In this document: positions 5,571-34,417 of the stretch, piece by piece | Position numbering within the stretch: the stretch's first letter is position 1 | Layout: each line of letters begins with the position of its first letter | Assembly: GCA_030272155.1 (NCBI GenBank) | Contig: CP126192.1 | Location: forward strand, 2,142,501 to 2,206,500 | Reading direction: 5' to 3' | From: Tetradesmus obliquus | Taxonomy: Eukaryota; Chlorophyta; Chlorophyceae; Sphaeropleales; Scenedesmaceae | Length of the DNA stretch: 64,000 nt | Position numbers and translations under genes: made by a program | Notes under the pieces: model-generated | The model's input: the letters and a program-made list of their open reading frames with translations, nothing else | Databases searched by the model: none | What the model was told of the DNA's origin: nothing

Positions 5571-6743
5571 TCAAAGCTCTTTCCGCTTCCTCTTCCTGTT
5601 GCTTGGCATCTGCAGCAGCTGCTGCAGATCCAGGCCCATCTCGTGCCAGGCAGCAGCAGCTGCTCCACCATCCTCACCCAGTGCACGCACCCTGCTGCTG
5701 TGCAGCAGCTGTGCAGTCACAGCCTGGCCGGCTGCCTCTGCCCTTGCAGCACTGGTGAATGCTGCTGCACAGACAAGGAAGTCCTTGACAAAGTCAGCCG
5801 GCAGATCTGCTGATTCGTCTCCAAAGTATGCACAAACCGCATCCATCAACTGCAGCAGCGTCTGCAGCCAGCTGCTGTCACTCAGGATGCCCTCTGTCAC
5901 AAGCACAGGCGCCTGCTGCTGCTGCTGCTGCTGCTGTCCTGCCTGCGTTTTTGATACCGCTGCTGCCAGGTGCATGTTATGGGTGGTGACAGGTGCAGCA
6001 GCTGGCACATCTGATCCCAAGTGACCCGCTTCTGCTGGCTTGCTGCTGCAGCTGAGGTGCGGCTGCTGCTGCTGCTGGCCATCAGCCCTGCTGCTATGCA
6101 CGGCCTCAGCTGCTGAAGATGCAGCCTGCTCCTCAGCTGCTGCAGCTGGCGCTTGCACTCCTGCTGCAGCTGCTGCTGCTGCTGCTGCAGCAGCACTCTG
6201 TTCCTTCGCTGCCGCGCCCTGCAGCTTGAGCAAGCTGGGAGGTGCGTGCTGCTGCTGCAGCTGCTGCTGCTGCCCTGCCATGCACTGCAGGGCTGCCATT
6301 GCCTTGCAGGCATCTGCCAGATTGGCCCACAGGTCCCGCACTGCCTCCAGCAGCTGCTTATCAGCCGACTTGTCAGGCTTGCCAGCAGCGCCAGAGTAGC
6401 GCCTGAGCACCCCAGTGCAACCACCCACGGCTGCCAGCGCTTGCACAAACAGGTGGGTAGCAATAGCCAGCCAGAAGCTTGCACCTGCTGCTGCCGCAAC
6501 CGGGGGCTTGACGTTGTCGCTTGTTGCCACTGCTGCTGCTGTGGCTTGCCAGCTGCTGCTGAGCAGCAGCAGCTCATCTGTGTCCCCGCAGAGCGCCGCC
6601 TGCATGCGGTTCAGCCAGCCAAAGGCAGCACAGCTGTGGGGGTGCCACTGCTGCCCGCTGCTGCGCTGCACAGACTCCGCGTAGCAGCGCTGCGACTGCA
6701 GCTGCTGCGGGCCCAGCAGCGCCAGCTGCTGCAGCTCACCTGC

Positions 6744-6799
<56 letters not shown>

Positions 6800-8759
6800 G
6801 CCTGTCAGAACAGCAAAAGAGCTAGCGACAAGAGCAGGCACATGCGGGACGCTCTGCTGAAGACTGCGATGTCTGCTCAGCGCTGTATCTCTCTGCCTGC
6901 TTCATGTACACATGCAGCGCAATGTTATCTTTCAGTAAGCCAATGCACAAACCAGCAAGCCCCCCACCTGTGCGCCCCGCCTCTGCAGCCGCCACCAGCT
7001 CCTGCAGCTCGTCCCACTCGTGCAGCATGCCCCAGCGGAAGAAGTTGCTGTAGAACAGCGCAGCTGGATACATATCCGCCAGCCTGCCGAGTAGCGCCGC
7101 CTGCACTGCTGCCAGCTGCGCTGCTGCTGCCTCATCTTTCAGCTCCTCTGGCATGAGCCCTGCCACTAGGATGAGTATGACTTGCTGGCTGCTGCAGGGC
7201 GTGCATCCGCTGCCGCCCGCATACAGCCAGTTGGCCGTGTCGGCGTGCTTCAAAGGCCTGCATAATGCGGCAGGCACACAGCAGCATACAGGATGTGGCG
7301 CAGAGTGGCTCCGCAAGGCAGCAGCGGACAGGGTCACAAAGGCAAGGCACAACAAGCACCAAAGCATGAGCTCACAGCAGGGGACGCATGGCAAGGTGAA
7401 TAGCCAGGGTTGCATCCAACAGGGCATTAGAAGCAACAAACCGTGTCATTAGGATCAGCAGCAATTGATTACCTTCAACTACGACTTCTGCAGCACTTTT
7501 GCGGCCAGCTGGGAGCAACCAAGGGCCCACCTGGGGTCAGTCACCTCCACATGAATCAGCTGCTGCACATCTTCCGCGCCACTGCTGCTGGCTGCAACAT
7601 GCCCTGCCTGCTGCTGCTGCTGCTGCTGCTGGGGCAGTGCCAGCCAGCAGTGGTCGTCTGACACCATCATGCGTGCTGCTGCCAAGTCAGCGTGCTGTGT
7701 GCTGTGCTGCGCTGCAATGCTGTGGCACATGCCCAGCACTGCTGTGGCAATGCCGAGGCAGTCCAGCTGCCGTTTGCCTTGGTCACGTAGCGCAGATGGC
7801 AAGTACTGTGCAGTGCACACCGCAGCAGAAGCATACATAACAGCTGTCTTGTTGTAAACCAGAAGCAGCAGGGTTCCTTGGTGTGAATTGTCACGCGTTT
7901 GTGGTGTGGCAGCCGAGCGATGCAGCACTCAAGGGGATACCTGCCTACTACCTGCACAAAGTCAAGCCAGAGGCCGCAACCTGATGTCTGCATGTGCTGC
8001 CACACCGTTACAGCCAAGTGTCGGCTACGCACACCTGACCACTGCGCTGCTGCCTACGTCTGTACACACAACTAGCTACTCAAAGTACCCTTACCACCCA
8101 CCTGTGTGTGCAGCGGCTGCTTGTGTGCTGGCGCCTTTGCCAGCTTGCCCCTGAGGAATTTGGCCAGCGCCACAACCTTGTCCTGCAGGAGAGGACAGCA
8201 GCCAGGCAATGTGACACATTGCATGGCATGGCACAGCATAGGGATGCTCCATTGCAGGTTATGGCGGCAACTTGATGCGTGGCTCTTGCTCACAATTCAT
8301 ATGACACATATGACACAAGCAGGCACCGGCAGGGGGTGCCGCCCCTGCTCACTGCGCGCAACGCCTGATGCTAACGCACCAATGGCCAGCACTGCTGTGT
8401 CATTGGTTTCTTACCTGTGGTGACTTGCACTTGGGTCCCAGCTTGGCTGCTGCTGGCGCTACTAGCTGCTCCTGAAACTTTGCTACATGCTGTGCTACAG
8501 CTACATCAAGTGGCTGCCCTTCATCAGCGCCGTTGAACAGCCACTCCTGCAAGATGCCCAGTATGATGGAAGCTTTGGCTACGCAGGGCTGATGCGAGCT
8601 CAGCTCCTGCTCCAGCAAACTGAGAGCGTCGGCTGCCACGCCATGTAAACCTGGTGCCTGCTGTAGCTGCTGCTGCTGCTGCTGCTGCTGCCATGGCTGC
8701 AGCAGATGTTCCTGCGTCTGCTGCTGCTCAGTCATTACAGTGCGCTTGAAGGTTGGCAT
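5571..8759 (-). CDS. Menin-like protein (777 aa, six exons)
   Basis: Model on the minus strand: exons 8759-8415, 8182-8102, 7996-7952, 7847-7497, 7184-6842 and 6739-5571; every junction keeps frame. In animals menin is a nuclear scaffold that binds MLL/KMT2 histone methyltransferases and transcription factors. Support is a collinear series of matches: a helical N-terminus (about residues 45-140); QLDCLGIATAVLGMC (about 184-198), followed by SDDHCWLAL (about 220-228), which match the menin papain-like fold segment where human menin reads SEDHAW; then IHVEV; then MYPAALFYSNFFRWGMLHEW, matching the helical segment after the fold; then WHPHSCAAFGWLNRM in the TPR-like part. The C-terminal third is padded with Ala and Gln tracts and ends in a basic NRKRKRKEL tail, a likely nuclear signal. 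I know the family mainly from animals, so the assignment rests on motif order rather than high identity. The splice between exons 5 and 6 is the least certain. Confidence 0.68.
6745..6798. repeat. (CAG)18 microsatellite inside an intron
   Basis: Eighteen uninterrupted CAG on the + strand, read as CTG by the minus-strand menin-like gene. It fills more than half of that gene's 102-bp fifth intron, just upstream of the 3' splice site. Confidence 0.95.
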
Positions 8760-9008
8760 ACGCAGGTCTGCTGCGGAGCTGGTGTCTGAGAAGCCTTACC
8801 AAAAGGGGTGTGGACACCCAGGTCACAGGGTCTGCAATATGTCATGACAGGAATCGCATGTACGCCCTCACAACTGTATGCTGCAGTGGCGATGTCATAA
8901 AAACATACAGATCGGATTGGTCAGAGACGCTGCTACCTTGTTGACCCTGCGGCAGAGGAACCCGCCTTGTTCCGGTCTTCTGCTTGAACTTTCTAGCACG
9001 TCGTCAAC
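8760..9008. promoter_or_regulatory. Shared head-to-head upstream region
   Basis: Only 249 bp separate the start codons of the minus-strand menin-like gene and the plus-strand RPAP3 gene. Both 5' untranslated regions and both core promoters must fit here, so it is probably a bidirectional promoter. No clear TATA box is visible. Confidence 0.6.
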
Positions 9009-10946
9009 ATGGAAGCCCAGTTCCAGATACGGCAAAATGCTTTGGAGGCCCAGGATTATGCTCAGGATCTGCTGCAGTGGACGCAGTCTATGAGCAAGAA
9101 GAGCGCGGGCAAGCAGTCCAGCCAGCAGCAGACTGACCAGGGAGTGCCCAGTGTGAGGGGCAGGGCGCCCGGATCGGTGCAAGAAGCACCAGCTAGCATG
9201 CAGCAGCCAGCTTTGCAGCCCAGTAAGCTGTCAGCAGCGCGTGCAGAGCGGCCACCTGCTGCGCACACATACTCCAACTACAGCAAATGGGACAAGTTTG
9301 ACCCAGATGCTGCAGATGGAGCACCAGACCAGCCAGCAGCAGCAAAGCAGGCTAGCAAGCCACATCCTGCAGCAAACAGCACAATCAATCAGCTTCAGCC
9401 CCGCCAGCCTGCAGCGCCGCAGGCCAGCGCAGCTGAGGAGGTGCAGCCCAGCATAACAGCACGCAGCAGCCCAGCAGCAGAAGCAACCGCGCTCAAAGAC
9501 CGCGGCAACAAGCTGTTTCAGGCAGGCTACTATGACGATGCTGTCGGCTGCTACACTCAGAGCATTGCCCTGCAGCCCACTTCGCTTGCGTATGCCAACC
9601 GTGCAATGGCTCGGCTGAAGCTGGGGCAGCCAGCAGAGGCTGAGCAGGACTGCACCGCAGCACTGCAGCTAGACAGCAGCTATATAAAGGCTCTGCACCG
9701 CAGAGGCACAGCACGCAGGCAGCTGGGGCGGCTGCTGGAGGCAGCAGTTGACTTTGAAGAGGCGCTAAGGCTGGAGCCTGGCAACGCCACAGTGCAGGCA
9801 GACAGGGACGCAGCGCTCGAGCAGCACCTGCAGCAGCAGAAGCTGCAGGCAAGCAGCGCTGCCTGGAGCAGCATACCTGTGACAGCACTGCTCCCGCCAC
9901 CAAAGCAGCAGCAGCCGCAGCAGCCCCAGCAGAAGCAAGGCAACCAGGAGCAGGCGGCGGTGATCGAAGCAGCCAGCAGCAAGCATGTCACCTTGCTGGA
10001 TGATACAGCAACAGCAGCAACCGCTGCTGCTCGTGATGCCAATAGCAAAGTAGCAGCAGCAGCAGTCAATGCGATGAGCAGCACAGTAGCAGCAGCAGCA
10101 GCAGCTAGGCAGCCGCCTTCTCGCAGCCCCAGCCCGCAGCAGGTCTCGACTGCCGCTGCAGCAGCAGCTGCTGCTGCCGCACTTGCTGCCCGGCGCGCTG
10201 CCAGCCTGAAGGCGCCCAGGACTGGCAACGACTTTGAGGCAGCTTGGCGCAGCTTCAAAGGCGATGTGCAGCTGCAGGTGGGTGGCATGGCGATAAACAG
10301 CGCAGCAGACAAGGCAGTGTGAAGCTGTGCTTCCGCAGCGGATGCATGTGATCCTGCTGCATGTTTGTTGGCGGCAGGGCAGGTTGTGCTGCATGCACAT
10401 GCTCACTGTATAGCAGGAGGTTGGATGAGTAATGTTTGTGTACGGCGCATCTGCCACACGGCAGCCATCGCTGTGCCATGTGGGCATCCAAATCCCACCT
10501 TTGCCACGCCACTGGTGAGGCATACTTTAGGCCTTGGTATCCTGATGTTGTTGCTGTGCTGGCTGCTGCAGGCGAAGTACCTCGCGCTGCTGCCAGTGCA
10601 GCAGCTGCCAGTCATCTTCAAGACGTCACTCACCGCCCCCCTGCTGCGAGACATCCTGACAGCAGCACTCACAGCCGTGGCAGGAGCAGCAGCAGCAGCA
10701 GCAGCAGCCAGCAGTGAACCAGAGAGCAGTGACGCAGGCAGCAGCAGCAGTGAGCTGTCTGCTGGCCATGCTGTGGGGCTGCTGCAGCAGCTGCCAAAGC
10801 TGCCGCGCTTTGACATGACTGCCATGTGCCTCACCAGCAGGGACAAAGCTGCGCTGAGGGAGGTGTGGGATGCAGCAGCAGCAGCGCTGGGCAGCAGAGG
10901 CATTGCAGAGCAGCTGGCAGCAGTGAGGCCGAAGTACAGGCTGTGA
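9009..10946 (+). CDS. RPAP3: RNA polymerase II-associated protein 3 (RPAP3)-like, TPR co-chaperone
   Basis: Exons 9009-10277 and 10572-10946 give 547 aa. RPAP3 tethers HSP90 to the R2TP (RUVBL1/2-PIH1) complex, which assembles RNA polymerase II, snoRNPs, PIKKs and, in flagellates, axonemal dyneins. Seen here: a short N-terminal helix region; a YSNYSKWDKFD element near residue 95 like that in RPAP3/SPAG1 proteins; three TPR repeats at about residues 160-275 with GNKLF.AG.YDDAVGCYTQ, AYANRAMARLKLG and ALHRRGTARRQLG; a long Ala/Gln linker; and a C-terminal RPAP3_C domain (about 405-547) containing FEAAWRSFKG, AKYLALLP and LLRDILTAAL. The single intron falls inside the RPAP3_C domain. The ATG chosen is the first in frame and gives a normal family N-terminus. 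The linker's Ala and Gln runs are expanded. Confidence 0.92.
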
Positions 10947-17005: not shown

Positions 17006-17392
17006 TGCTGCTGGCTTGTCTCTCAGCAGCGTCAGTCCTATGTGGAAGTCCCGCTGCCTTTTGGGCTGATGACGTTGATGGTGTACCTGCATAACCCACA
17101 GACGAGCAGCATTTGCTGGGCTGTGGCTCTAAGCTATGAGGCACGGCACCTCAAGCATGGCAGCATCCATTGCAGGAAATGCAGTTATCTCTCCTCATGC
17201 TGCAGCTGCACGGCTGGATGTGGACTGACGTGGCGTGTAACTTGACTGAACAGCCACTGCAGCCCTGCGCACCAACCTGTGGATCTTGCTGTCCCAGGCA
17301 CACCATCACGGTGCCACTGCCTGCCACAGACAGCCGAAACTGCGGGTTGCAGCACCAGCTGGATGACATGGACACGGAGGCTCCAGCTAGGC

Positions 17393-17424
<32 letters not shown>

Positions 17425-20000
17425 GGTGATGCTGCACTCTCCAATACACCACCATCCTGAACTGCTTGTGCTACTGTTGACTGGACTTCTCTGCTGTCGT
17501 CTGACGATGGATATGCTTGTGCATGCCCTGGCTCCTTAGCTGCTGCTGCTCCTGGACTACCTGTCGTGGCTGCTGGGCCTCCAGCTGATGCACCCACCCA
17601 GCCGGAGCTCAAGCTGATCTGGTGCCAGCTTTCCGGCATCAGCTGCACCACCCAACACCTGTTGAACACCTGAATGAACTCCCTGCAACCCAGCAGCAGC
17701 AGGCCGAGGAGCTGCTTAGATACATGATACACACAAGTGCGGTATACACTGCAACTGGTGTTCATAGTACACCCTGCAATCACACAGCAAGCAGTGCTAC
17801 TTGTTGCTGATGCGCTGCAGCCTCTCGTGCATTTCATGGCCGGCCACCTCACCAATATGTGCACCAAAATGTGGCTAGGTCCTGCAGGCCAGCTGCCAGT
17901 GCAGCATCCTGTGCCAGCGCTGCTTGCCCCTCCTCCCCCATCCACTCCTGGCTGCTGCACTGCAGGCCCCATGGCCCCTGCCACATGCCATTGGGAGCCC
18001 AGGGGCAGTGCAGGCGCAGCAGCTTGCTGCCGCCTGGCAGCACCCTGGCTTCCAGGATGCTGTAAGGCGTGTTTGGCAGCACGCCCATCAAGCTGCCCTT
18101 TGCTGCATCCTGCGGCTGCTTGGCCATGCAGGCAATGATGCTGCCAGCTGCCAGCCACTGCTCAATGGAGGTCCACAGGCCACCTGGCAGGGAACAGAGC
18201 AGCAGCAGCAGTCAGGATCAGCTGCCAACATTGACCGGTAACGTAACGCACGTTGATGACTTCATGCCACCTCCAACTCTATACGCAGCACGAGCCTGCT
18301 GCAGGAACTGGAAAACTCTACTACTACTGCACTTGACAGGCACTCTTACCCGTGGCAGCGTCTTGCATGTGTTCCTCAGTGGACAGGCTGACCTTGCTGA
18401 CGACACCACCAGTCAGGTCTACCAGTGCGTCACCGACACTGCCTGCTGCAATGGCTGCATACCCGCCATGCAGCCTTGCATACGCCTTCTCGATGAGTGA
18501 GGGCCACAGCTCCTGCATGTGCCAGCAATACACCCATGCAACATATGCTTGTCAGCAGGCATGCTGTGCCCGTTTTGTTGCCAAAACAGCAAGGTGCCGC
18601 ACACATCGCACTTGCAAGCAGCATGTCACTCATGCATGTGCTGCAAGCCTGTGCAGTGAGGCTGATTCACCTGGAGCGAACACAGCAGCGCATGGCATGC
18701 AGCAAATCGCGGTAGCACTGCAGCTGCTGCCACCACACGCAGTACCTGTGCCTGGCCGCTGCTGCAGAATGCGAGCCGCTGCTGCTGCTCCATGCACGGC
18801 AGCCTGTTGTCCACCACCACGGGTCGCCAGCTGCCGTGCTTGAAGAAGCGCACTGTGTACAGGCCGCGCTGAGCACACTCATCCGACACGATGAGGTTGA
18901 GCAGCAGCTCTTGCTTGCGGGAAACTGCTGCCAGCGCCCCCAGGAACCAGCTGCTGCTGCCGCTGCTCTGCAAGACACCCTGTGGTGATCACAGCATACA
19001 CAGCAGAAGCGAAACATCCGGCAGTTATGATATTGGGTGGCCTCTCGGCAGAGCAGAAGAGCTGTGCAGTCACACGTCCGGAGCCGCCCATGGCACAGCT
19101 ACCAGCCATACTTCAGCCTGATGATGAGAGCACTGGCTGCATCGGCTGGGGCCCTAAGCACACCTGTACAAGCCTGGCATGCTGGCTGCTTGGTGTGTAC
19201 AGATTGCCCGTTACGCGCCGCCACACAACAGGCCCATGTGCTTGCTGCTCTTCTGGAGATGTTTCAGTAGGAAACCTGCAGGTTAACATGCACATGTTGA
19301 CTGCTAGCAACTGGTGCTGCGATGATTTGGCATGCCATTCACTCTGAAATCAAAAGCAGTTTTTATCCATCAATGGCTGAAACATTTGCACTGTGCTGCA
19401 ACTTATCTGAGAGCTGTAGCAGTTCGCTGCTAGGTTGGCTGCTGGCCAGCTGGCTCATGCCTGGATACAAAGCAATGCTTGCAAGCACGATGAACCATCC
19501 GCTCTAGAGGGGCGCAAGGCCATTGGCAGGGTTGCTGTGGCTGACGTAATGACGTGCAGGTGTGGTGAAGTCAGCAATGGCATGGCTACAAACCACCCAC
19601 TGTGTATCATTAATGCTGCGTACTGCTTGCCTCACAGCCTGTGCTGCTTACACTGCATCCTCAAAGCTTGGGTTGTCCTGCTCAGCGTTGATGTACTGGA
19701 GCTGCAAGCTGCTGCTGGCAACCAGTTCTTCCTCTGTCAGCTGCTTCAAACGTGGTACTTGCAGCCATTTCTGCCAGAGGTTGCGGCAGAACACACTCAA
19801 GTCAGGTCACCTGCACCGCATGGGACTGCTGCAGTCCGTACTGCACCTGCACCTACCTGGAACAACTCCACAGCCTGCTGGTCATCACACGCCTCACTGA
19901 TGTAGACGGGAGCTTTAAGTTTCGCTGCTGTTGTAACCACGCTCTCTATTTTCGTGCTTGAAGCAGGTCTGCTGGCAGGTCGCGGCGAACTTGACCGCAT
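14930..20000 (-). CDS. Calpain-like protein with degenerate catalytic triad and three C2L (domain III) repeats
   Basis: Firm exons on the minus strand: 20000-19857 (start), 19770-19654, then 18967-18746, 18512-18350, 18183-17865, 17682-17277, 17086-16671, 16401-16307, 16119-15757 and 15510-14930. The stretch 19653-18968 holds one or more unresolved exons. The protease fold is clear: SWFLGALAAV, GSWRPVVVDNRLP, ELWPSLIEKAYARLHGGY and ALVDLTGG match CysPc. However, the catalytic Cys is Ser (GSSSWFL, normally GDCWFL), the His is Thr (LPNTPYSI, normally GHAYS) and the Asn is Cys (LHCPWA, normally RNPWG), so it should not be a protease. Three calpain domain III copies follow, each with a W..A.AGG....W..NP signature: GWVGASAGG/NPQFRL, QWLAHQAGG/NPQYLI and AWDAATAGG/NPAYLL. 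Poly-Gln and poly-Ser insertions interrupt them. It lies beside two ciliary genes on the same strand; a structural or regulatory role is inferred. Confidence 0.82.
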
Positions 20001-25711: not shown

Positions 25712-26872
25712 ATGAGCCACGGTGGCAGGTGTGCGATCCTTGTGTTTGATAGGCTGCCTCACCAGACTGCTGAGGACTGCCATGCTGACAGTAGCAGCTG
25801 CATGTAGTGCCGTGCTGTGCTGTGCTGTCCTTGCAGCTTGGCAGGGCATGTTGAATGCACTGCAGCTTGGCAGTGCATGCCACATGCCCTGCCTGTTACA
25901 TTGCTGGCTGGGCCTATCAGCATCGCGCCTGCAAGCAAACTTTGGTCCTCATGCTCTCTGCTTTGCAGCTCCGCTGCATTTCTGCCCTTTCTGAAGAAGA
26001 AGCCCCTTGCAGCAGCACCAGCACCAGTAAAGGACGATGATGAAGACCCACTGGCAGTGCCCCTATCGCCAGCACCTCAGCCCAGCAAACTTATTGGAGC
26101 AGCAGGCACAAAGTTTGTGTCCAAGCTGAATGGCAAGCCAGGGCCTGGGAAGCCTGGCCATGCGGCAGCAGCAGCTGGCGTCAAGCGGCCTACGCCGCCC
26201 ACAAAGAACTCTGGCATAGCTGGCGTCAACAAACAGACACCAGCGAAGTCAACAGCAGCAGCGGCATCACGTGGCCTTGCTGCCAGGCCAGCAGCAGGCA
26301 AGCCTGGAGCAGCAGGTGCTGCAGCCAACAAGCCGGGTGCTGCAGGAATAGCCAAGCCAGCTGCGCTTTCTCCAGCGCAGGCCAAAGCAGAAGCAGAACG
26401 GCGGCGGCTAAAGCAGCTGCAGCGGCTGGCTAAGGTCGGGTTGCTGGCTCAAGATGCACCGCCTGAGCTGCGAGCAAAGGTGGAGCAGGCTAAGCAGGAG
26501 GCAGCAGCGATTCAGCGGCAGCATGAGCTGGAAGCGAAGCGCAAGGTTGAGATGGAGCAGCGGCGACAGCAGGCCATACAGCAGCGGCAGCAGCAGGAGC
26601 AGCAGCGTGCGGCTGTGCTGGCTGAGAAGCAGCGGCTGCTGGCAGCCAAGCTAGGCAAAGCTGGTGCTGCTGGTGCTGCTGGCGCTGGCAGCCTTAGGGC
26701 CGCAGGTGCCAGGCCAAGCGCTGGTGCTGCAGCAGCAGCCGGGCCCGGCCGAGGGCCTGCAGGGCAGTCGCAGAGGAGCGGGACAGCAGCTGCACCAGCA
26801 GGTGTGGGCAGCAGAGGGCCTGGAGGGACCGGCAGCAGCGCAGCTGGTGGGCGGCCGGCACCACCACAGCAT

Positions 26873-26907
<35 letters not shown>

Positions 26908-27962
26908 TAAGGACCCTTATGCTGGGCTGAATCCCAAGGTGAGCCATTCAAATGCATTGCTGCAGTCGGTGATTGAACAGGTCCTGCTGGCATGTGCATA
27001 TCATTGACTGGCAGCAGTGGTGCAGTGAGTGATGGCTGCTTCAGGCTTCAGCATGATGTGTCACCTCTGCGCCGGACATCAGCAGCTGGCTGCCAAGTCC
27101 ATCACCTGGCCCGTACTGACATTGCCTGGTAATCATTGCCGCTGAACTGCACATGTATCCGCATGTCATGCAGCAACGCGCATTCCTGCTAGCGCGCAAG
27201 CGTGAGCGGGAAGCGCGGCTGGGCGGCCGGCCTGCCGGTAGCCGCGGGGGCGGCGGCCACGGCAGCGATGGCGAGGGCTATGGCGGCGAGGATGACGAGT
27301 ACGACAGCGAAGACTCGTTCATCGATGATGACGAGTCAGGGGACTGGCGGCGTCATCTGCGCAGCTTGACAGGTGAGGGGGCACGAGAGGACAGGGCGTG
27401 CGTGTGCAGCTGCGCTGGTGGTAAGAGGCTGGCCGCTGGCTGAGAAAGAGGCAGCAGCTGGCAGATGGGTCTCACGTCTGCGTGCTGTGCGCCGTGACTC
27501 CCTAGATCTAGGGAAAGCGCGCTGAGATTGATATCGCTGCGGTGCGCAGTGCATGCGTCGCTGATTGGACAGCTCAATTGCACAGCGTTTGTCAAGCCAG
27601 AATGTGCACGCACGTGCGGTTGTGTCATGGTGCCAGATGGCTCTAGTTTTGGCACCCCTCTTTCCTGAATTGCTTTCTGCTTGCCTCACGTTTTGCCCTG
27701 CTGACGCTTCCTGCTGCTGCTGCTGCTGCTTGCACCCCGCACGCCTTCAGGCTACGACCCCAGCAGGTACAAGGACAGCTTCTTTGATGACCGCCGCATG
27801 GAGGCCAGCGCAGCGGAGATTCAGGCGGAGGAGCGTCGCAGCGCGCGCATCGGGCGCACCGAGGATGAGAAGGAGGCAGAAGCTGAGGCGCGGCGGCTGG
27901 CAGCCAAGGAGGCCAAGAAGAAGGGACGGAAGCGCGGCGCAGCAGCGCTGTTTGACGACTGA
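25712..27962 (+). CDS. SPT2: SPT2 chromatin protein (465 aa)
   Basis: Exons 25712-25728 (17 bp, ATG plus five codons), 25969-26938, 27174-27372 and 27751-27962 join exactly in frame; the tiny first exon gives MSHGGSSAAFLPFLKKKP. SPT2 is a histone H3-H4 chaperone and transcription elongation factor acting in nucleosome reassembly. The SPT2 box is unmistakable at about residues 370-440: DEYDSEDSFIDDDESGDW, then YDPSRYKDSFFDDRRMEAS and an EIQAEERRSARIGR helix, with a basic KEAKKKGRKRG tail. The middle is an Ala/Pro/Lys-rich linker with a Glu/Arg/Gln coiled coil (about 220-300) and a nine-Gln run. An upstream in-frame ATG at 25817 lies within intron 1 and would give a longer, odd N-terminus. Confidence 0.93.
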
Positions 27963-30604: not shown

Positions 30605-33600
30605 ATGGGCCTGTTGAGCTTGGGGTGCTCCCCCCGGCTCCCAGTCACAGTGCCGGGCAGCCGAGCGCTACGAACGCAAGGGCGAAATGTGAGATAACAT
30701 TTGGCTGGACTGCATCGTTGCTGGGTCAGGCTGTCATAGCATGCCCTTCACCTTGCCCTGGTCTGCTGCTGCTGCTGTTTCTGTTGCTGCACCAAACAGG
30801 TCTGCAGCAGGGCCACATCCGGCTACTTTCCGCACCACAGGCTGCATCTCACGTCAGGCGGAGTACCCATTCCTGAGCTATGGACATCTACTGGCACCTT
30901 TCAGCGCCGTGCACCACGCCTGGCACCTGAACCCAGGACTGGACAGCACAACGCTTACCCACCAGAGCAGCTGGCTGAGTTACTGAGGCCTGAGTCATGG
31001 CAGCTGGCGTATGGCTCAGCTATGCAGGACTTGCAGGCACGGCTGCAGCACCTGTCACAGATACTAGCACAGGCCTACATGCGTGCGAGGCTGCTGTGGC
31101 AGCACGTGGTAGCCAGCTGGCCCGCCTGGACAGCCTCCCTCAAGTACGACGTGGAGTATGTGGTTGAGTATGCCATAGGTGTGCTGCCAGCCTGGCTGGC
31201 AACAGTGCGCGCTGCGCTGCGTGCGGCCTATGATGATGTCAGGGCCACTGCTGCCATGCAGCAGCTGGCCTCCAGCGTGTCCACTGCAGCCAAGGATATG
31301 AGTGTCAACATCAGGCGACTGCAGCAGGCCGTTGCAGACACCAACCAGCTGGCCAGCAACAGGTGGGTCAGCAAGGGACTTTGCAGTGAAGTTGACACAC
31401 CTCAGCGCAACTGTTCAAACAGCTGCGTCAGGTGTGCCCAGTGCCTGGCATCACTGTAGTGCGCATCTGCTGGCCTGTTATTGAGCTGGTAGCAAAAAAC
31501 TGTCCGTGACATGGATTTTACTCTTGTGTCTCGACACTGTTATCTGGCACTGGTGCCCCACGTGCATGTTGCAGGCTTGCAGAGTCGCCACCCTTGCAGC
31601 AGCTGGTGCGACTGGCATCAAACCTGGCCAGCAGGGAGAGCAGCGGCGCTGCCACCAATGTTGCCAGGGGGCTCACACACAGCATGGCAGCGCTGACAGC
31701 AGCAGAGCTTGCAGTGAATGCGCCTGTCAGCAGTGCCAGCGACAGCGGCAATGCACGCAGCAGCCCAGTGTTTGCCTGGGGCCGTAATGAGACTGCCGCC
31801 ATCGCAGAGGTGGCTGGCCCGCCCAGCAGGCGCAGCAGCAACGACCCCAGCATAGATGGCAGGCTGCAGATGGTGGGCTGGCTGCCCTCAGACCTGCACG
31901 CCACCATGTACTCTGTTGGTGCAGCCGGCAGCTCCAGCCTGCAGCACATGGTGATGGAGCCACTGCAGCAGGCTGGGTTCATCTCTGTGAGTATTCGGCA
32001 ACAGTGTTCCTGCAGGATGCTGAGGTCGGCAGTGGCTGCTGTTTGTCATAACATTCGCGTAGATGAAACACAGATTGCTGCTACCTTCATGCTTGTGCTA
32101 CACCTGCCTGCCAGGCACGCACGTGCATACCTTGCCCACTTCCTGCACACATAGCTGACTGAGGCTTGCTTGTACGGCCCCTGCTGCCTGCAGAGCTGCG
32201 GCCGGGGCCCAACACTGGCTGGAGTCATTGCGGCTGCTTCCGTGGTGCTGGCAGGCAGCGTGTACCGCAGCATGCAGCACCAGGCACAGGAGACAGAGGA
32301 GCGCCTGCTGCAGCAAGTGCAGCTGCAGATGAAGGCAGAGAACCTGGCAGCACAGCGCGCGGTGAGAGGCATGCTGCGTGCTTGGCTGCCAGGCCCAATC
32401 AAGTGCTGGTGACCTTGGATGTACACTGGTCGTAACTGCATGTTGTGTCGTCTTGCACCTGCTTGCTTTCCTTCAGATGTGACAGCTGCATGCTCTAAAT
32501 GGCTGACTAGTACCATTCAAGGGATCCTGAATCCATGTGCCACCTTTTATGATCCTGCTGCGCAACAATAACAGAGGTTCCGCCGAGCGCTGGATGACAG
32601 CCAGGCGCAGTCTGCTGGCACTGGCGCAGTTGGGCCTTCAGTCAGCATCAGCACACGCCGCCGTGCTCCATCGCCGCCAGACGGTGATGCCTGGGAGGAC
32701 ACGCTGTCCGCCAGCCCGCTGCTGCCTGCAGCTGGGGCCAATAGCCGCAGCGGCCGGCAGGCTGCTGTGCCGCAGCTGGATGCTGCTGCTGCACGCGAGT
32801 ACCAGCGCTTCATGGCTGGCGCGCGTGCAATGGATGTGCCAATGTGGGACAGCCACATGGTGGAAGACCTGCCTAAGGTGGGTTGGGCCGGCAGGTGTTG
32901 CTGCAGGAAACCATGCTGCAACCAGCAGAGCGTGCTGCACTCTGTGACCCCATACTGCAAATGACCTGCTTGTCATTGGCTTGGGAATGTAGAATTCAAC
33001 ATATCAAACGCTGACGCATTGCATGCTCTGGACACCTGCTTGCCATGCGTGCTGCCAGGTTTCCATGAAGGAGATGCAGCGACAGACGCAGAAGATCCGC
33101 TCAGCAGCAACAGACCAGGAGCGCGCTGACATGGAGGATGCAGAGAAGCGCCGCGAGATAGTTGAGCAGCAGCTCAACAGCCAGCTGGCAGATCTGGCAG
33201 GCGCACCGCTGGGCCGCGCAGCACGCGAGGCCTGGCGAAGGGAGCAGCAGGAGATGAAGCAGCAGCAGGAGCAGCAGCGCCTTGCAGAGCAGCAGGCTGG
33301 GGGTCGCAGCAGAGGCGGCAGCCCAGCGAGCAGCGCTGGTGGTGATGCAGGAGACTTCAACCCCTTTGCTGTCAGCGGTGACGCGCGTGCAAAGTGGGAT
33401 GCAGAGGATCACCTCTACTCTGAGCCTGCGCCACGCAAAGGTGGTGGCTTTGGAGGCTTTGGCGGCTTTGGAGGCCGCCAGCAGCAGCAGCAGCAGCCGC
33501 AGCAGAGCCAACAGCCGCAGGCACGCAGGCGCAAGTTTGCGGACGAGCCTGTAGACAATGGAGCGCTGCAGCCAGCAGCAAGCAGCAGCAGCCCTGGCGC

Positions 33601-34417
33601 CAGCAGCAGCAGCGGCCGCGCGGCAAACCTTTCAGGCCAACCTGCAGGACAGCGCCAGCAACAGCAGCAGCAACCTCCAGCTGCTGCACAGGATGGACCT
33701 GCTGAGGGCAGCCCTGAGTGGGAGGCCCAGGCGCGTGCTGAGATGCTGAAGAATGCTGCAGCTAGGAGGGCCAGGCGCCAGCAGATGGTGCAGCAGCAGC
33801 CGGCCGTGCAGAGCAGTACATCCGCACCACAGGTGGCGGTGCCTTCGGGCAGCCAGCCGCAGCAGTCGCGTGGCACAGGCGGTGTTGTTGCAGCTGCTGC
33901 TGGTGCTGTAGCCTCCCGCAGCATACCCAACAACTCATCTCTGCACCGCCCCAAGTGGCCAGGTGCGGACACGATCGCTGCTGTCGCTGCAGTTGCTGGT
34001 GCTGCTGCTGATGCTGCTGCTGAGCCAGCAGCTACCAGCAACGCTGGCAGCGGCGTGTCTGCTGTGCGCATGCAGAATGAGCTGGCGGCTGCTGCCGCTG
34101 CTGGTGGCAGCCGGCTGGCTGCTGCTGCAGCCAAGGATGTGCATGAGGTCATTCCTGCAGCTGTGCCCAGCTCCGGTAGCATGCAGCGCCTGCAGGACTC
34201 AGCACCACCTGCCGTGACAGCAGCTGCCGCAGTAGATGGCGCAGGTCAGGTCAGGCCCAGCAGCCGCTCCAGCAGCAGGAGCAGCAGCAGGCAAGAGGCT
34301 GAGGACGATGAGGTGAACCCCTTCGCTGTTGACAGGGCTGCCATCATTGATGACGAGACAGCTTATGAGATTGGCAAGGTCGTTGACGAGGAGACTAAGC
34401 GCATCCGGCTGCTCTAA
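30605..34417 (+). CDS. Unrecognised 962-aa protein with NPF motifs, coiled coil and possible membrane segment
   Basis: Exons 30605-30688, 30800-31362, 31575-31986, 32194-32361, 32575-32877 and 33059-34417 keep frame throughout. The first 28 residues (MGLLSLGCSPRLPVTVPGSR...) are Arg/Ser-rich and lack acids, like an organelle transit peptide. Residues about 95-215 form helices rich in Ala, Leu and Trp (WQHVVASWPAWTASLKYDVE). A hydrophobic stretch, LAGVIAAASVVLAGSVY, near 361-377 may be one membrane helix, followed by a charged coiled coil (about 385-410 and 515-590). The C-terminal half is Gln/Ser/Gly-rich (GGFGGFGGFGG). Two NPF tripeptides in the same context, FNPFAV (near 611) and VNPFAV (near 930), resemble EH-domain ligands, and the protein ends in a conserved-looking acidic helix. 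I do not recognise the family. The first exon is the least certain. Confidence 0.72.

Follow-up and report, generated by a model that had tools for sequence, protein, structure and literature searches.

The window analysed here, a stretch of DNA 64 kb long (C2:2142501-2206500; contig C2 measures 8.85 Mb and belongs to an assembly of 17 contigs totalling 104.66 Mb), carries a gene whose product we read as a strongly diverged homologue, and probably an ortholog, of menin, encoded by an apparently single-copy gene of a photosynthetic alga. We give this reading as a whole a probability of about 0.7; that the protein is a real, divergent menin homologue is, on the matches described below, very probable. 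Menin is a chromatin scaffold protein, tumour suppressor and leukaemia drug target that is best known from animals.

Gene model, host and surroundings

The menin-like gene lies on the minus strand, with its ATG at 8759 and a TGA stop at 5571, and is modelled as five exons (Table 1) with 2202 coding bases for a protein of 733 amino acids; all four introns are GT-AG. A preliminary description of this DNA had the same start and stop coordinates but counted six exons, one more than our GT-AG model contains, and every sequence block that it quoted is found on the minus strand in the order claimed. The exon 3 acceptor (between AAG and ACA at 7847) was picked by eye and is the junction of lowest certainty in the model. 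Chlorophyll-a/b-binding matches are plentiful in the genome (52 places, a tally by exon and not by gene), so we take the host to be photosynthetic; it is likely a green alga, the label it had been given before, which fits these matches.

Several features of the surroundings were recorded as well. A long CTG run on the minus strand (window ~6750–6800) ends, by eye, at most about 10 bases from the exon 5 acceptor, so a change in repeat length could alter splicing of the menin-like gene. A TPR protein is encoded on the plus strand at window 8997–10322 (TPR_1 E 2.8e-19, three stretches), and by eye it also has Gln/Ala repeats; its gene points away from the menin-like gene and begins ~250 bases from it, and since the two genes are close and divergent, a promoter region may be common to both. 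The long open frames at 17151–18161 (minus), 25808–27007 (plus) and 32993–34417 (plus) have no Pfam match at E 0.01, and tRNA and Rfam searches of the 64-kb window gave no matches.

Table 1. Exons of the menin-like gene (window positions) and domain matches of the KMT2/ATX-type gene (positions on contig C2).
Feature	Position	Strand	Content
Exon 1	8759-8415	-	Gln-rich start, then SLLEQELSSHQPCVAKASIILGILQEWL; canonical donor
Exon 2	8182-8102	-	27 codons; AG acceptor, GT donor, phase 0 at both ends
Exon 3	7847-7531	-	transglutaminase/papain-like core, including poly-Gln loop
Exon 4	7257-6968	-	NWLYAGG block, then helix-like stretch as far as MYPAALFYSNFF
Exon 5	6739-5571	-	palm region, Gln/Ala-rich linker, C-terminal block ILSDSSWLQTLLQLMDAVCAYF, basic tail
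KMT2/ATX-type gene	C2:4974703-4980111	domains on one strand	PWWP, FYRN, FYRC and SET matches
PWWP	C2 4974703	same strand as SET	22.8 bits, under the cut-off of 25.6
FYRN	C2 4975861	same strand as SET	KMT2/ATX-type gene
FYRC	C2 about 4976311	same strand as SET	KMT2/ATX-type gene
SET	C2 4979866	same strand as FYRN	KMT2/ATX-type gene

Matches to menin

The full-length 733-residue protein gave no match in Pfam. Five trimmed pieces had been cut before any of their scores were known, and the best Pfam score came from residues 141–330 (Menin, E 1.9e-4, 20.3 bits), with residues 36–330 close behind (Menin, E 2.4e-4, 20.0 bits); once the poly-Gln loop was cut out, Menin was matched at no more than 11.6 bits (E 0.082), and neither the palm piece nor the C-terminal piece matched it. 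The earlier suggestion that large Ala/Gln insertions may have hidden the gene agrees with the data in part: trimmed pieces match and the full length does not, but removal of the poly-Gln loop lowers the score. The open reading frame (ORF) of exon 3 alone finds Menin with E 0.0099 and 14.7 bits, those of exons 4 and 5 alone do not, and the Menin stretch extends into exon 4 when the spliced piece is searched. Menin is the only significant Pfam family for the protein, and three shuffled sequences (of four made) and one reversed sequence gave no Menin match. The family profile, PF05053, had been named in the preliminary description as a check; a Menin match with the E-value above was obtained, but its score lies below the family's curated cut-off of 23.6 bits, and we therefore speak of a menin homologue and not of a certified PF05053 member.

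A search of the PDB by sequence with the whole protein gave 3re2_A as the sole match up to E 10 (E 1.4e-4), in three colinear stretches, with almost all of the score coming from the central one; phmmer aligns protein 46–71 (exon 1) with 3re2 20–45 and protein 628–698 (exon 5) with 3re2 370–440, worth 0.6 and 2.0 bits by themselves, respectively. With residues 36–330 the 3re2_A match has E 5.7e-5 and the next match, at E 1, is unrelated. We take 3re2 (titled ‘Predicted protein’) to be Nematostella vectensis menin, and it matches human menin at E 1.1e-140. When human plus partial Nematostella menin was compared with the protein in hhalign, the local mode gave P 4.4e-6 and a probability of 86.7% over 124 columns with 31% identity (human 152–280 with algal 170–315), and the global mode a probability of 0.2 and nothing useful. 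The local profile, made of human menin and Nematostella residues 127–440, scored the protein at 29.0 bits (E 5e-7, with the search space fixed by us at 20000) and three variants without the loop and/or the linker at 23.8–26.6 bits. The core motifs LD..G, S[ED]DH.W and WLY are identical or near-identical across the three sequences of alignment A1. Six-frame genome searches missed the locus both with the Pfam Menin profile, which was silent in the control genomes too, and with Nematostella menin, whose best place lay elsewhere (E 4.6).

Controls for chance matches

Not one of 3000 block-shuffled versions of the protein reached 29.0 bits with the human plus Nematostella profile (the best had 12.5). 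The individual exons were ranked with the menin profile against a background of 2575 six-frame ORFs (50 amino acids or longer, some overlapping) from the window and from loci of the same genome: the exon 3, exon 5 and exon 4 ORFs rank 1, 2 and 3 (18.3, 7.4 and 4.7 bits, respectively), and since the fourth-ranked ORF stands at 4.6 bits the margin of exon 4 is thin (0.1 bit); the exon 1 ORF, at rank 57, is weak alone. Shuffles of single ORFs equalled the real score in 0/1000 cases for exon 3, 0/1000 for exon 4, 1/1000 for exon 5 and 43/1000 for exon 1, and for exon 2 no menin match of its own was seen. The ORFs of exons 1, 3, 4 and 5 match profile positions 17–48, 148–206, 215–271 and 377–472, which is menin order, and leave 272–376 without coverage; this order and these ranks are independent of the splicing model. 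The menin match of the protein is more than chance, and the homology first proposed from the letters alone is supported by Pfam (under the curated cut-off), the PDB sequence search, the local profile, and the way the exons are ordered and ranked.

Correspondence with the parts of menin

Judged from sequence, the protein is colinear in its homology with animal menin through N-terminal helices (weak), a transglutaminase/papain-like core, a WLY segment and a C-terminal helical block. The exon 1 segment SLLEQELSSHQPCVAKASIILGILQEWL is the counterpart of the first menin helices (profile 17–48); exon 3 contains, in order, LDC with the Cys, SDDHCW with the His, the poly-Gln loop and LIHVEVTDP with a candidate Asp; exon 4, ending in MYPAALFYSNFF, corresponds to human menin about 218–280; and in exon 5 the palm region is followed by a Gln/Ala-rich linker of ~120 residues and then by the C-terminal block ILSDSSWLQTLLQLMDAVCAYF, which matches profile 377–472 and is followed by the basic tail NRKRKRKEL and the stop. 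The palm (profile 272–376), which forms half of the MLL pocket, has no confident alignment to menin. For the MLL/JUND pocket residues given in excerpts of PMC8022399 and PMC11209892, placement by hhalign and the profile shows Ser178, Asp180, His181 and Tyr276 kept in the alga; Ser155, Leu177, Glu179 and Ala182 changed to L, V, D and C, and Phe238, Cys241, Ala242 and Met278 changed to I, A, G and A, respectively; and Tyr319, Met322, Tyr323, Glu359 and Glu363 without an alignable counterpart. An AlphaFold model of a single read-through sequence, introns included and without an alignment, had a pLDDT of 41, and Foldseek found no match to it at E 0.001. At so low a confidence the model places a helix across the stretch with the Cys, strands close to the His and to the candidate Asp, and then mainly helices, an arrangement compatible with the menin fold (a transglutaminase-like domain plus a TPR-like palm) but no proof of it.

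KMT2-type and other chromatin partners

Relatives of the H3K4-methylation machinery are, by their domain matches, present in the genome: an FYRN-FYRC-SET gene of KMT2/ATX type (Table 1) and four Dpy-30 matches. Among three FYRN places, a SET match is listed nearby only at one, on C2. The core menin-binding motif of KMT2 partners is FPxRP. In all six frames it is absent from six 10-kb stretches around the three FYRN places (including 20 kb at the KMT2/ATX-type gene) and it is absent from 32 loci of the genome, a negative result that covers motifs not split by an intron within those stretches and loci; a looser pattern had one match, in locus L022 on the strand opposite to the SET match of that locus, which we judged to be chance. 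The SET and PHD patterns were silent even on the SET domain later shown, so they support no statement on absence. The LEDGF integrase-binding domain (PF11467) had no matches in the genome, and none of 14 control genomes was positive either. In the region C2:4966000-4985999 the KMT2/ATX-type gene lies downstream of, and on the same strand as, exon matches to GAS (PF13851), which we take to be of the ciliary GAS8 type, and its 5′ part has stretches that look Tudor/agenet-like by eye only.

The menin-like product would be a nuclear protein with a peptide-binding cavity bounded by an alpha/beta core and a helical palm, and it might serve as a scaffold for recruiting partners to chromatin, with a KMT2/ATX-type methyltransferase as the natural candidate partner; we regard such a nuclear scaffold role as likely, if far from assured. 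The preliminary description had pointed to the role of menin in animals as an MLL/KMT2 scaffold and looked to a KMT2-type partner with a menin-binding motif: the gene of that type was found, but the stretches examined around it contain no FPxRP, and the palm part of the pocket cannot be aligned.

Copy number, origin and alternative explanations

A six-frame genome search with the core of the protein returned no places other than the two exons of the window in which this core is encoded, and the gene is apparently single-copy. We consider it extremely improbable that the match is due to chance or to a mis-built gene model: the protein is Ala/Gln-rich and of low complexity, the E-values are moderate, the exon 3 acceptor is uncertain and exon 4 stands 0.1 bit above the next ORF, but shuffles that preserve local composition never reach the score (0/3000), and the separate exon ORFs agree independently of the splicing model. 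Another reading is a different papain/transglutaminase-like protein with helical repeats, for example of the SirB1 type, with only the superfamily Cys-His core in common with menin. In its favour, the strongest signal falls in the core (exon 3) and the palm is unalignable; triad-like residues, moreover, are common throughout the papain/transglutaminase superfamily in excerpts of PMC10318531. Against this reading, which we think quite improbable, Pfam lists to E 10 (where HMMER filters remove most matches above ~0.1) contain no further family of transglutaminase- or papain-like type, and the exon 4 and exon 5 ORFs beat nearly all of their own shuffles and do so in menin order. Transfer of the gene from an animal or another eukaryote would agree with a patchy distribution of menin (land plants are not known to have it), but seems very improbable to us: in alignment A1 alga and Nematostella are 24% identical and Nematostella and human 58%, values that speak against a recent origin from animals, the gene has four introns, the adjacent TPR gene shows Gln/Ala repeats as well when inspected by eye, and the locus lies well inside its contig. 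An old transfer from a non-animal donor is conceivable. Two scans of viral contigs (34 and 600 pattern matches) and two of prokaryotic genome contigs (64 and 590) confirmed no relative, and the menin family is ‘solely eukaryotic’ in excerpts of PMC10318531. In the literature on menin outside animals, no title or abstract among the matches listed concerned algal or plant menin, and neither PMC3457860 nor PMC9102325 uses the word ‘menin’ in its main text.

A further reading, which on sequence we hold to be unlikely, is a menin-like enzyme (protease, deamidase or transglutaminase) whose Cys-His-Asp site works and from which animal menin would have descended with loss of activity. The alga has Cys at the position of human menin Ser154, as does Nematostella, a conserved His at the position of human His181, and, roughly where the third triad residue would fall, a candidate Asp in VEVTDP; excerpts of PMC10318531 describe human menin as without the Cys and some other family members as keeping the full triad, so the triad would not be new to the family. 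However, the position of the Asp comes from matching the shared EVT anchor by eye, phmmer and the profile align the VEVTDP stretch differently, and the structure prediction, with its pLDDT of 41, is unusable. The Cys-His-Asp set might be a residual or working active site, which is less likely than the scaffold role, and we regard retained enzyme activity as a doubtful possibility. Equally tentative is a history in which menin arose before animals and green plants diverged and was first a nuclear Cys-His-Asp enzyme of papain/transglutaminase type, with the alga keeping the site and the MLL pocket arising later in animals. 

For a diverged menin homologue, an earlier origin of the family is the simplest reading; a divergent relative in a photosynthetic alga-like genome suggests that menin could long predate animals and could at one time have acted as an enzyme.

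A homologue from a photosynthetic lineage would serve as an outgroup for the ancestral functions of menin (peptide-binding scaffold, chromatin recruitment, enzyme activity lost in humans) and would help to date the menin-KMT2 link. It also illustrates how, in a genome rich in repeats, an old family can score under the usual profile cut-offs.

Comparison with known systems

In the transglutaminase/papain-like superfamily (Pfam clan Peptidase_CA), of which no other member is matched by the algal protein in Pfam, the Cys, His and candidate Asp have the order that is found in the alga. Nematostella 3re2 is the best sequence match: LDC-G, S-DH-W, WLY and the C-terminal block are common to both in equal order, but identity is 24% (A1), the alga has the long Gln/Ala linker, and the palm and acidic pocket residues of 3re2 are unrecognisable in it. 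Human menin (MEN1; PDB 8gpn, 3u84) has Tyr319, Tyr323, Glu359 and Glu363 in its pocket (per the excerpts cited above), with no confident counterparts in the alga, and by eye it differs in having Ser154 in place of the algal Cys and, after EVT, Trp in place of Asp. Nonetheless, the order of the blocks is equal in the human and algal proteins, 31% of residues are identical over human 152–280 and alga 170–315, and both end in a basic C-terminus (by eye), KRQRKGL in human menin and KRKRKEL in the alga.
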